DNA of 36,500 nucleotides from a virus: positions 1 through 36,500 of the IMG/VR virus record IMGVR_UViG_3300003872_000006. One strand, given 5' to 3'. The notes beneath the pieces were generated by a model that was not told where the DNA came from, searched no databases, and worked only from the letters and a program-made list of their open reading frames with translations. The position numbers and the translations under genes were made by a program. The first letter of the stretch is position 1. Every line of letters begins with the position of its first letter. This document shows positions 20,220 through 36,373 of the stretch, one piece after another.

Positions 20220-22616
20220 TTACTTGCTCGGAATGTCAAACGGTTTGACATCATCAGCAAAAGATAAAGCCTCAGAGAGGGACTTGAATTCGTGCATCTG
20301 TCCCCATGAAGGACCTATTTTGAACTCTACTGGGAGGATTAGAGGAACTATCTGTTCGGTGTCAAGGTCGAAGATGGGGATTTCTATCTCCATGCATTCT
20401 TTAATCTTGTGAAGGACTTCCTTCACAGCCTCTGGATTTGCTTCGCAAGTCAAGACAAGTTCGTCGTGGATCTGGAGATTGAGAGCTACCCAGGTCTTGT
20501 CCTTTGACCATTCCCAGAGCTTGAGGAGGGCTTTGTTCAGGGTGTGGGTGCAGGTGCTCTGGGGATAGAATGCATAGGCTTCTCTGAGGGTGTCTGGGTC
20601 ATTGAGCCTGCCAGTGAAGAACCTTGGGAGGCCCCAGGCATCTTCTAACTTCCTTGTCTTTTGGACTATCTCTGCAGTTCTTCGATGAAAAACTGAGCGG
20701 ATCTTAGGAAAGGCTGAGTGATATCTTTCGAGGAGGTCCTTTGCTTGGGAAGCTGAGATCATCATGATCTCAGAGAGCTTTCTCCAGCCCATGTCATAGT
20801 TGGAGGCGTGGCGGATGGTCTTTCCGATTTTCCTGAGCTCTGGAGTTACTTCGTGTTCAGGTATCCCAAACATCAGGGAGGCTGTGAGCTTGTGGATGTC
20901 CCTGCCCTCTTGGAAGGCTTTCTTACTCTGCTCGTCGTTGCACCTGTAAGCTACTATGCGGGCTTCAGCTCCAGAGTAGTCTGCTCCGACGAAGATCCAG
21001 CCCTCAAATCTGGGTTTGAACTGAGATCTGTAGGGTTTGCTTCTGTTCTGGAGGTTGGTCCCGCCTATGGTTTTGCTTCCTGATTTGCAAAATACTGGGG
21101 CTGAACTGCTCCAGCGAGCTGTTTCTGTTCCAGCGACGGAGTAGGAGGTGTGGACAAGACCTGTCCATGGATGAGGTTGGATTTGGAGCTCTTTTGAAAG
21201 GATAGAGGAGAGTTCTTTCCATTCAAGATAAAGTTGAAGCCACCTTAATTTCTGAGGGTCTTTGTCCTTGAGTTTTTGGAGGAGCTTTTGGATAGCCTTT
21301 TCGGAGGTTGTGATTTTTCCTTTCTCAAGAACAGGAGGGAGTTTCCACTCTTGGTAGAGGAGGATTTTGAGTTGCTGATGGGAGTTGAGGTTGATGGAGG
21401 AGGTTTCGGGAAAGAGGGAGGACATCTCCTCCCTAATTTGGGACATCTTCTGTTCGACTTCCTGACGAAGTCTCTCTTGTTCCTCGAGGTCGAGTTTAAG
21501 TCCAAGGTAGCCCATGAAGACTGCGGGGAGGAGCTCTTGGCGTTTCTGGAGGTCATAGACTTCCCAGTAGCCTCTGGAACGGAGTTCGTCTTGAAGTCTT
21601 TCGAAGAGGAGGAGGGTTGTGAGACAGTCCATGGCATTGTAGAAAGTAGGGGAAACCTGTGAGAGGAACTTCCACGCAGGGACTGTGAGCCAGAAACTTG
21701 CACAGAACTCTAGTGATTTCTTCTGGTCTGGGAGGAGGATATGGTGCATAAGCATTGTGTCGTGCGGGGCTGAGAGCCACTCTATTTTGTGTTCTCCGTA
21801 GAGCCAGGTCAGGTCGAAAGCTGCGTTGTGGAAGATTGCGTTCTGGGGAACTTTTTGGGAAAGCTCCCTTAACTTCTCTATAACCGGAGGAGATGGAAAG
21901 CAATTAGCTGTGGCATAAGTTCTGGAAGTGTCAAACGGTTTGACATTGACAGCAATTCCGACCAGGTCCATGGTCCAGGTCTCTCCCTGATGAACTTCGA
22001 TGTCCAGGGCATAGGGAAGGTGATTTTGCAGAGCAACATCACAAAGCTTCAGGAATTCCTCTTGGGAGTTCTCATGGAAGGAGAACTCTTCCAGAGAAGG
22101 AAGGGTCTCGAGACCTTGGATGTATCTGCAGATCTTTCTTATGTCGGCTGAGAAGGAGAGCATCTGTGAGAAATCTCTCAGGACTGAGGCTGGGTGCCAG
22201 GTCACAAGACATGGAATTCCCTCAAAGAACAACCAATATCCTCTTATCTCGGAGATCTTGTAAGCATCTCCGAAGAGGGCTTCGAGGGCAGTCTTTCCGA
22301 GACAGAGAATTGCCTTTGGTCTGTGCTCCCTGATGTCTTGGAGGGTTTTCTCTCTATACTCAAGGAACTCTGGCATTCTTTTAGCCTTCTCTATATTGTT
22401 CAGGGGAGGTCTGCACCAGAACACATTGGCAACTCTGGTTTGGGATCTTGAGATCCCAAACTTTTGGAGGGTTCGGAAAAGGAGATTTCCCGCAGACCCA
22501 ACAAAGGCTTTGCCAGCTCTGTCTTCGTTCTGACCTGGGGCTTCTCCAAGGATGTAGAGAGGACCTGAGCCCTCTGGAGGAATTTCCCTTCCGATCTCCT
22601 TTATGTTGTCTATCAA
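20220..22616 (-). CDS. Fusion of UDG-like domain, 3'-5' exonuclease and family A DNA polymerase
   Basis: A 798-aa replicase; TTG start at 22616 with AAGGAGGT 8 nt upstream. Residues 20-150 are a family 4-like uracil-DNA glycosylase fold: GEAPGQNED (24-32), FVGSAGNLL (38-46), HPASVLR (141-147); the N-terminal cysteine pair of iron-sulfur UDGs is absent. Exonuclease motifs: DIE (205-207), NAAFD (264-268), YNAMD (326-330). Polymerase motif A is DYSGAEAR (546-553), B RKIGKTIRHASNY (595-607) and C HDE (717-719), so it should be active. Tyr607 occupies the position that is Phe in E. coli Pol I. Two dispersed palindromes are encoded in frame: NVKPFDT (224-230) inside the exonuclease domain and DVKPFDIPSK at the very C-terminus. 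Confidence 0.93.
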   Translation of the reverse strand: MIDNIKEIGREIPPEGSGPLYILGEAPGQNEDRAGKAFVGSAGNLLFRTLQKFGISRSQTRVANVFWCRPPLNNIEKAKRMPEFLEYREKTLQDIREHRPKAILCLGKTALEALFGDAYKISEIRGYWLFFEGIPCLVTWHPASVLRDFSQMLSFSADIRKICRYIQGLETLPSLEEFSFHENSQEEFLKLCDVALQNHLPYALDIEVHQGETWTMDLVGIAVNVKPFDTSRTYATANCFPSPPVIEKLRELSQKVPQNAIFHNAAFDLTWLYGEHKIEWLSAPHDTMLMHHILLPDQKKSLEFCASFWLTVPAWKFLSQVSPTFYNAMDCLTTLLLFERLQDELRSRGYWEVYDLQKRQELLPAVFMGYLGLKLDLEEQERLRQEVEQKMSQIREEMSSLFPETSSINLNSHQQLKILLYQEWKLPPVLEKGKITTSEKAIQKLLQKLKDKDPQKLRWLQLYLEWKELSSILSKELQIQPHPWTGLVHTSYSVAGTETARWSSSAPVFCKSGSKTIGGTNLQNRSKPYRSQFKPRFEGWIFVGADYSGAEARIVAYRCNDEQSKKAFQEGRDIHKLTASLMFGIPEHEVTPELRKIGKTIRHASNYDMGWRKLSEIMMISASQAKDLLERYHSAFPKIRSVFHRRTAEIVQKTRKLEDAWGLPRFFTGRLNDPDTLREAYAFYPQSTCTHTLNKALLKLWEWSKDKTWVALNLQIHDELVLTCEANPEAVKEVLHKIKECMEIEIPIFDLDTEQIVPLILPVEFKIGPSWGQMHEFKSLSEALSFADDVKPFDIPSK
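20233..20251. promoter_or_regulatory. Dispersed palindrome copy 7 (perfect)
   Basis: Perfect core with outer CTC (20227-20229) and CAG (20255-20257). It is translated as VKPFDI in the last residues of the DNA polymerase. Confidence 0.95.
21928..21946. promoter_or_regulatory. Dispersed palindrome copy 8, inside the polymerase gene
   Basis: Core GTGTCAAAC-G-GTTTGACAT (one terminal mismatch) with outer CTG (21922-21924) and CAG (21950-21952). It is fully internal to the polymerase reading frame, about 670 bases from its start, in the region joining exonuclease motifs I and II. Confidence 0.95.
22438..22461. repeat. Intragenic hairpin, 11-bp stem
   Basis: GTTTGGGATCT, loop TG, AGATCCCAAAC, inside the UDG-like part of the polymerase gene. 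On the RNA it would be a stem capped by a 2-4 nt loop. Confidence 0.85.
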
Positions 22617-22620
22617 GTTT

Positions 22621-22986
22621 CTACCTCCTTAAAGACCTCATTCTCAAGTTGCTGGGAGGCTCGAAGTTGAAAATGAGAACAGGGATGTCTCTTTCCTGAC
22701 AGAGTTTTATCTCCCTTTGGCTACCCTTGGAAGCCCAAAGGTCTCCGCCTGGAGAACTCTCTGCAAACAGGGCGACGTCGAGCTTCGGAGTTAGAAGCAG
22801 GTCTGAGAGTTCCTCCCAAAGATGAGCTTTGTCTCCGAAAGTCTCATAAATTGACCTTGATATGTCCATAGGACATATGCAGAAGAAACCCAGCTCAAAG
22901 AGCCTTAGTTTTGCTGAGGCATAAAAGTCAAAGACCTCCTCCGAAGGATTGGGTCCTACAGGACCCCCAAGGAAGGCTTTTATCAT
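22621..22986 (-). CDS. Nucleoside 2-deoxyribosyltransferase-like protein (DUF4406-like)
   Basis: A 121-aa protein, GAGGAGGT before the ATG. It opens with a beta strand and Gly-rich turn (IKAFLGGPVGPN), has a central DVALFAESSPGGDLWASKGSQREIKLCQERDIPVLIF (about 70-107). This is the xDVALxxxPxWxxSxGxxxExxxAxxxGIPV pattern of the nucleoside 2-deoxyribosyltransferase superfamily that phages often carry as DUF4406. It may act in nucleotide salvage or in an unrelated nucleotide-binding role. It sits between the polymerase and a zinc-ribbon protein and overlaps the latter by 4 nt. Confidence 0.65.
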   Translation of the reverse strand: MIKAFLGGPVGPNPSEEVFDFYASAKLRLFELGFFCICPMDISRSIYETFGDKAHLWEELSDLLLTPKLDVALFAESSPGGDLWASKGSQREIKLCQERDIPVLIFNFEPPSNLRMRSLRR

Positions 22987-23258
22987 ATCTCTACCTCCTC
23001 AACCTTGAAGTCGAGTTCCTTGAGCTCTTCCAAAATGTCCTCCCAGTCATAGGGCATTCTTTCCAAGATCACCGTTCCGCAGTTATTACAAACGAGATAA
23101 ACCACACAGAACACGTCAGCACAGTGATGCCATGGAGTTAGGAAACCGTTACCTGAGTAGGGGACTGGGATATACTTTAGGATTTGGAGCTCGTAGTAAG
23201 TTCTGATTATAGCATACTTTCTGTTACAGTTATTACATCTCACTGTATACTGTTTCAT
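22983..23258 (-). CDS. Zinc-ribbon protein, function unknown
   Basis: A 91-aa protein, GGGAGG before the ATG. It has two cysteine pairs, CNNC (8-11) and CNNC (about 57-60), spaced as in a zinc ribbon; an HHC motif (44-46) lies between them. The C-terminal 25 residues are acidic and helical. Such small ribbons often contact nucleic acid or polymerase. No family is recognised. Confidence 0.6.
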   Translation of the reverse strand: MKQYTVRCNNCNRKYAIIRTYYELQILKYIPVPYSGNGFLTPWHHCADVFCVVYLVCNNCGTVILERMPYDWEDILEELKELDFKVEEVEI

Positions 23259-36067: not shown

Positions 36068-36146
36068 TATGATCTCTATCATATTCCCAGAGAAACTTTT
36101 TACAGCCTATAGCAATCAGTGTGCCAATGTCAGCCGACTGTCAATA
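36048..36146. repeat. Duplicated 22-bp element of the early promoter
   Basis: CAATGTCA, 6 nt, TGTCAATA occurs at 36048-36069 over the early promoter and again at 36125-36146. The second copy reproduces the -35 box and spacer but has no -10 box, so it looks like a second operator rather than a promoter. Confidence 0.75.
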
Positions 36147-36169
36147 GCGTTTACATTCTCAGCCCTTTT

Positions 36170-36373
36170 GTGACTGACCAGTCAGTCACCGTTGGATAGG
36201 GGTCTCTGCCCCCACGGCGGCTGGCGAGGTGGAGAAAATCACCCTTTATACTCCAAACCAAGTTTCAAACCCCATGTCCTTTCCTCCCAAATCCTTTCCA
36301 TGTCAAACCGTTTGACATTGGGAGGACATCTAAGGTCCTCCCAAACGGGGTTCGGAGCTAAAAGCTCCGAACC
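36170..36373. other. Noncoding control region with hairpins
   Basis: No gene is seen here. It holds GTGACTGAC-CA-GTCAGTCAC (36170-36189), palindrome copy 16, TTGGGAGGAC-ATCTAAG-GTCCTCCCAA (36318-36344), and GGTTCGGAGCT-AAA-AGCTCCGAACC (36349-36373). The last could act as a factor site or as a terminator-like stem upstream of the late promoter. Confidence 0.7.
36300..36318. promoter_or_regulatory. Dispersed palindrome copy 16 (perfect)
   Basis: Perfect core with outer CTT (36294-36296) and GAG (36322-36324), in the junction control region, about 180 bases before the late promoter once the circle is closed. Confidence 0.95.

Follow-up and report, generated by a model that had tools for sequence, protein, structure and literature searches.

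Coding RNA can fold well beyond shuffled controls, as in genome-scale ordered RNA structure and in structured RNA-phage genomes. The virus genome treated here (record IMGVR_UViG_3300003872_000006, 36,500 bases, analysed at full length and called the window) differs from these: it belongs to a double-stranded DNA phage, and its structure is massed in one early block of perfect hairpins about one helical turn long, with hardly any G·U pairs. What could fill genes with such hairpins? The nearest described parallel is found in the coding palindromes of Nematomorpha mitochondria, where many perfect, sequence-diverse inverted repeats lie in intact coding genes, perfection is binary with few decaying copies, and midpoints are sometimes common to homologues; the authors suspect conversion since imperfect copies are missing (PMC6649704). 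The phage resembles them in all these respects, but the Nematomorpha repeats have a mean stem length of 43 bp (maximum 142), with spacers of 37 bp on average, and come from four species (PMC6649704), whereas the phage has stems of 9–13 bp with loops mostly of 7 nt or less, in one virus genome and concentrated in one 3-kb region. Template-switch mutations that create or repair RNA hairpins (PMC8794818) and the homogenisation of quasi-palindromes in yeast genes (PMC8604942) share with it short-loop perfect arms, a G-C/U-A orientation asymmetry and coding changes in the arms. Those events were read from phylogenies, whereas the phage offers the end state only, at far higher density. Rickettsia palindromic elements also sit within reading frames, but they are dispersed copies of repeat families whose identity fades with time (PMC6649704), and the phage stems share no sequence.

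A direct scan of the window for perfect inverted repeats (stem of at least 10 bp, loop of 0–10 nt), the main count used here, finds 36, with stems of 10–13 bp; 35 lie outside a family of operator-like palindromes (16 copies, 19 bp) that was excluded from the hairpin analysis. A preliminary description of this DNA had reported at least 29, a real but low count, with about 25 between 22.4 and 36.4 kb; in the scan 29 start at or after 22438, or 28 without the operator at 30476–30496. The close neighbours it had picked out lie where it placed them (34475–34497 and 34499–34522, 1 base apart; 34698–34723 and 34728–34757, 4 bases apart), and its chance estimate (11/4^10 per position, or some 0.4 per window) is in line with the shuffles. 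Inside genes there are 22 such repeats, against 0.3 in codon-shuffled (maximum 3) and 0.8 in synonymous-shuffled versions (maximum 4). Codon shuffling was the control that the description had named as its refuter; similar counts did not appear and the observation stands. Are the hairpins, then, an amplification or assembly artefact, or a side effect of codon usage? No point in support of either was found: reading frames continue intact across the hairpins, neither kind of shuffle reproduces them, and the early gene block adjacent to the most affected genes has similar codon usage and almost no hairpins. We regard this explanation as barely credible. Many statistics were tried, and p values of 0.01–0.05 are taken as hints.

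The hairpins are unevenly distributed along the genome. Late genes run rightward up to 17.8 kb and a second set runs leftward from 36.0 to 18.9 kb, the two units being convergent; gene starts are mechanical open reading frame calls, and transcription is a prediction only. The late half has a weak excess, 20–31 kb a moderate one and 33.2–36.4 kb an extreme one. The high density claimed for 22.4–36.4 kb is thus a real excess, but an uneven one that rises sharply at about 33.2 kb. In this hot spot, stems of at least 8 bp reach 10.05 per kb in coding sequence (CDS) and 9.19 per kb in non-CDS DNA, against 1.2 (CDS) to 2.1 (non-CDS) per kb outside it. Its lower edge adjoins the operator at 33251, and the opposite side of the divergent promoter region shows no hairpin enrichment. 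The hot spot, its promoter and the perfect hairpins of the window (all from the inverted-repeat scan, with any second method named) are:

33208–36403, minus strand: hairpin hot spot, promoter-proximal 3.2 kb of the leftward (early-type) unit; 31 non-operator stems of at least 8 bp
36040–36067, minus strand: consensus sigma-70 promoter TTGACA-16-TATAAT, from sequence, reads leftward
33308–33333, minus strand: 13 bp, loop 0, gene 33276–33539
33386–33411, minus strand: 11 bp, loop 4, gene 33276–33539
33440–33465, minus strand: 11 bp, loop 4, gene 33276–33539
33602–33623, minus strand: 9 bp, loop 4, intergenic, terminator-like
33957–33975, minus strand: 9 bp, loop 1, gene 33633–34052
34078–34106, minus strand: 13 bp, loop 3, gene 34070–34273
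34116–34143, minus strand: 11 bp, loop 6, gene 34070–34273
34211–34236, minus strand: 10 bp, loop 6, gene 34070–34273
34312–34331, minus strand: 9 bp, loop 2, gene 34292–34546
34367–34394, minus strand: 10 bp, loop 8, gene 34292–34546
34475–34497, minus strand: 9 bp, loop 5, gene 34292–34546
34499–34522, minus strand: 10 bp, loop 4, gene 34292–34546
34572–34595, minus strand: 11 bp, loop 2, intergenic, adjoins operator 34601
34698–34723, minus strand: 10 bp, loop 6, gene 34650–35072
34728–34757, minus strand: 13 bp, loop 4, gene 34650–35072
34962–34987, minus strand: 10 bp, loop 6, gene 34650–35072
35142–35165, minus strand: 10 bp, loop 4, intergenic
35604–35628, minus strand: 10 bp, loop 5, terminator-like, after gene 35648–35971
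35680–35699, minus strand: 9 bp, loop 2, gene 35648–35971
35781–35805, minus strand: 10 bp, loop 5, gene 35648–35971
35874–35897, minus strand: 9 bp, loop 6, gene 35648–35971, near-homologous to 29688–29711 (also paralogue alignment)
35908–35936, minus strand: 11 bp, loop 7, gene 35648–35971, aligned midpoint that of 29734–29755 (also paralogue alignment)
35997–36028, minus strand: 11 bp, loop 10, just downstream of the leftward promoter
36170–36189, minus strand: 9 bp, upstream of the leftward promoter
36318–36344, minus strand: 10 bp, loop 7, upstream of the leftward promoter
36349–36373, minus strand: 11 bp, loop 3, upstream of the leftward promoter
30571–30597, minus strand: 11 bp, loop 5, gene 30507–31055
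29688–29711, minus strand: 11 bp, loop 2, paralogue gene 29400–29792 (also paralogue alignment)
29734–29755, minus strand: 11 bp, loop 0, paralogue gene 29400–29792 (also paralogue alignment)
28531–28554, minus strand: 11 bp, loop 2, ParB-like gene 28519–29325
28130–28151, minus strand: 10 bp, loop 2, gene 27817–28179
27174–27195, minus strand: 11 bp, loop 0, PD-(D/E)XK nuclease gene
26483–26507, minus strand: 10 bp, loop 5
24781–24805, minus strand: 10 bp, loop 5, intergenic
22438–22461, minus strand: 11 bp, loop 2, UDG domain of the DNA polymerase gene
20753–20773, minus strand: 10 bp, loop 1, DNA polymerase gene, replaces usually conserved residues (also family profile)
18675–18697, minus strand: 11 bp, loop 1, between the convergent late and early units
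14917–14939, plus strand: 10 bp, loop 3, gene 13406–16510
14345–14367, plus strand: 11 bp, loop 1, gene 13406–16510
13647–13670, plus strand: 10 bp, loop 4, gene 13406–16510
5140–5164, plus strand: 10 bp, loop 5, gene 4886–5833
2419–2441, plus strand: 11 bp, loop 1, terminase gene

Is the early message itself the object of selection? If selection on messenger RNA (mRNA) structure acted alone, the early leftward transcript would be a chain of one-turn hairpins with little single-stranded RNA, protected from single-strand RNases, RNA-targeting CRISPR or HEPN nucleases, or tuned in translation or decay, and the stems would be long enough for high temperature and short enough to evade RNase III. 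This is a serious possibility, though one that we rather doubt. The location suits it, as the hot spot occupies the stretch of the leftward unit nearest its promoter, and the hairpin at 35997–36028 lies just past the consensus promoter and so close to where the early mRNA presumably begins. Predicted folding suits it as well: mean z-scores in 33–36 kb are −2.9 and −3.8, against values near 0 to −1.2 elsewhere, and the hot spot is predicted to fold far more stably than shuffles at 37, 65 and 75 °C. But the hairpins are equally dense in non-CDS DNA, three of them (36170, 36318 and 36349) sit upstream of the leftward promoter, itself a prediction, genes 31058–33207 of the same unit are almost hairpin-free, and some AT-only palindromes are predicted to melt at 70 °C.

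What do the hairpins have in common? Not their sequence: the non-operator stems differ from one another, as the preliminary description had said, and their spacing is irregular. Copies of one repeat, or a primase-like loop motif, were considered and rejected (no strong common word; CTCAG only mildly enriched in loops), as was membership of the operator family, with whose 19-bp set the other stems share no sequence. Intrinsic terminators account for few (e.g. 35604 and 33602), most hairpins lying inside genes without a T run. The common element is geometry. The excess begins at stems of 6–7 bp and is confined to inverted repeats with loops of 0–7 nt; distant inverted repeats and direct repeats show no comparable short-range excess. 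Stems of at least 8 bp number 5, 17, 9, 12, 15, 9, 9 and 7 at loops of 0 to 7 nt and 1, 1 and 2 at loops of 8 to 10; the high value at loop 1 comes from the operator family, and past 7 nt the counts drop sharply. Non-operator stems of 8, 9, 10, 11, 12 and 13 bp number 22, 19, 16, 16, 0 and 3, a departure from geometric fall-off (p about 1e-4). Lengths in the hot spot are bimodal, near background up to 5–6 bp and then peaking at 9–11 (three of the twelve 9-bp stems in this count being operators), and past most stem ends the flanking bases pair at about chance level. A narrow length near one helical turn, declining above 11 bp, is also what selection on mRNA could favour. It is, besides, about one turn of B-DNA, and one could ask whether the hairpins serve the DNA, as cruciforms or single-strand hairpins that act in the start of replication, in recombination or in packaging; their presence in CDS and non-CDS alike and beside the divergent promoter region is consistent with this. 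We consider such a role very improbable, given the absence of a common sequence, the irregular spacing, the scatter over the whole genome and a strong asymmetry that follows gene orientation (below).

The stems are also strikingly free of blemish. With 9 pairs, the hot spot holds 30 perfect stems and 13 with one mismatch; with 10 pairs, 18 and 9. These mismatches are G·U in 3 cases, A·C in 4 and other in 6 (9 pairs), or 1, 3 and 5 (10 pairs), and no greater tolerance of G·U than of A·C is seen within hot-spot stems, which speaks against selection on mRNA structure. At the outer edges of stems G·U mildly exceeds A·C (8 against 2), in the hot spot only and confounded by composition. Within genes the commonest codon register is the one that pairs positions 2-2 and 1-3, likewise in the shuffles, and the trade-off between length and G+C content is weak.

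A further clue is strand asymmetry. Read along the sense strand, non-operator stems have 5' arms with an excess of G and T (G.32, C.23, T.27, A.18; flip test p < 1/4000), whichever way the gene runs; non-CDS hairpins are asymmetric too (p = 0.0014), and chance stems of 4–5 bp are not. The excess of T over A survives the synonymous-shuffle control (p = 0.005), and codons account for some of the G excess inside genes. An asymmetry present in both orientations and in non-coding DNA therefore points to a process oriented with the genes, in which transcription direction and leading-strand direction are indistinguishable here. It could arise under selection on mRNA; a G/U asymmetry between arms has also been derived for intrastrand template switching (PMC8794818). 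Perfection without a G·U preference, short loops, random flanks, equal density in CDS and non-CDS DNA and a G/T-rich 5' arm all fit template switching. Both this process and selection on RNA structure had been offered as causes in the preliminary description; the former fits better than RNA selection alone, and the latter stays a serious rival. The sequence itself shows the excess, its confinement, the perfection of the arms, the bounds on loop and stem length and the strand asymmetry; from these patterns we infer the cause, and likewise the polymerase and strand involved, the reason why this region is hot and any selection on mRNA structure. That the hairpins are made and kept perfect by short-range intrastrand template switching alone is the explanation we favour, tentatively and at somewhat less than even confidence. 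During replication, a nascent strand equal in sequence to the gene-sense strand would snap back on itself, and its 5' arm would serve as template for the 3' arm. Short quasi-palindromes with loops of 0–7 nt would thereby turn into perfect inverted repeats of 9–11 bp. Such arm-copying would run at a low level genome-wide and at a high one in the 3.2 kb of early DNA next to the divergent promoters, where coding sequence may tolerate it because the early genes are small orphans that absorb amino-acid changes.

Several points weigh against template switching as the whole explanation. The ancestral non-hairpin state is unreadable without a close relative, and no switching event is seen. Stems stop near 11 bp even in non-coding DNA, against the 43-bp mean in Nematomorpha mitochondria, and they are somewhat stabler than random stems of the same length, as selection on mRNA would have it. 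The hot spot ends near operator 33251 and is unmirrored across the divergent promoters; it follows the transcription unit and no obvious origin (GC skew, used to place one, was uninformative). Finally, the published derivation of the arm asymmetry runs via tolerated G-U intermediates (PMC8794818), which implies some selection at the RNA level. Might both processes operate, template switching supplying perfect hairpins and selection retaining them where a folded early mRNA is useful? This would join the DNA-level signs with the transcription-unit locality and the stability, but it is a union of two conjectural parts, and we hold it to be improbable. Without a close relative, template switching and RNA selection cannot be separated.

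One gene pair offers a comparison within the genome. Genes 29400–29792 and 35648–35971 are paralogues (proteins 32–34% identical), and each has an 11-bp hairpin (29734–29755; 35908–35936). The midpoints of the two coincide in the alignment, their arms differ, and one of the differences is paired, T-A to C-G, and alters both amino acids. Hairpins at homologous sites with a paired change may favour selection on mRNA structure. The coincidence of midpoints, whose chance is a few per cent by a rough hand estimate on one gene pair, is no more than suggestive, and a simulated value of zero for it stems from an exact tie and is disregarded; a second pair of hairpins (29688–29711 and 35874–35897) is offset by about 7 nt. 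In four proteins pooled, hairpin residues match the family consensus at 5 of 19 positions against 514 of 1113 outside, numbers too few to decide, and the 5' and 3' arms show no clear difference in conservation against the family profiles of these proteins.

How unusual is this genome? Searches of phage, viral-contig and genome-contig collections, from which near-identical records may be left out, gave no close relative by DNA polymerase, nuclease, portal, capsid, Cys-rich motif or small paralogues. Measured as stems of at least 9 bp with loops of at most 8 nt, the window has 16.7 per 10 kb, against 2.9 in the densest of 89 polymerase-search or related loci (the window's own fragment set aside). 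With capsid relatives added, the set of 164 loci from distant relatives and comparison phages (2.3 Mb) has a median of 0.6 per 10 kb, and only one 6.4-kb fragment gets to 4.7. A general feature of thermophile phages was rejected, P23-45 and RM378 being ordinary in hairpin density, and no report of such a hairpin-dense phage was found in open-licence papers.

Positions 1–97 of the record are an exact direct terminal repeat of 36404–36500, and the genome is therefore probably complete, circularly mapping at 36,403 bp and podovirus-like to judge from its sequence. It encodes a P22-like portal, a large terminase and a major capsid protein (relatives about 40% identical), a UDG-exonuclease-PolA polymerase, a DUF3987 primase/helicase, a ParB-methyltransferase fusion, an AAA_24 ATPase, an SSB-like protein and a PD-(D/E)XK nuclease; no known RNA families or tRNAs were found in the window. 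Amino-acid composition, by the IVYWREL rule, suggests a host growth temperature near 60 °C. In the early accessory genes at 26–36 kb, G-ending codons and CTG (Leu) are far commoner than in late and replication genes, a hint that the two sets differ in origin or in the selection on them. Directly downstream of the hot spot, 31058–33207 holds four tandem paralogous genes, orphans of no known family with the Cys motif PFC...C..CPYGKKKGxC, nearly hairpin-free and similar in codon usage to the hot-spot genes.

The operator family comprises 16 copies of the palindrome ATGTCAAACSGTTTGACAT across the genome (0.01 expected), at 1007, 2922, 4886, 7373, 11558, 16518, 20233, 21928, 25386, 26137, 29350, 30477, 33251, 34601, 35443 and 36300, reminiscent, as a sequence pattern, of repressor operators or stoperators. 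Those at 4886 and 11558 include the gene's start codon (ATGTCAAAC..., MSN...). Used as a probe for host or relatives, the operator gave few matches, one copy each, near chance level. The hot-spot operators at 33245–33275 and 34594–34624 have several extra flanking pairs on each side, locus-specific and with one G·T mismatch each, as if the hairpin process also acted beside operators. A rightward consensus-like promoter (TTGACA ... TATAAT, 79–110), seen by eye, contains the palindrome TTCCG AAAA CGGAA; it and the leftward promoter (36067–36040) are divergent.

What would these hairpins mean for the phage? A fuller picture, in which strand-oriented arm-copying keeps turning the early region into one-turn hairpins and the resulting hairpin-chain early mRNA may resist RNA-targeting defence, is on balance unlikely. 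If arm-copying is true, the phage would be a natural system of high-rate template switching in genes, a process elsewhere inferred from rare events, and how RNA hairpins and multi-residue protein changes arise would become directly testable. If selection on RNA is true instead, this would be a double-stranded DNA phage whose early message takes the form of one-turn hairpins, with a bearing on escape from RNases and RNA-targeting immunity.

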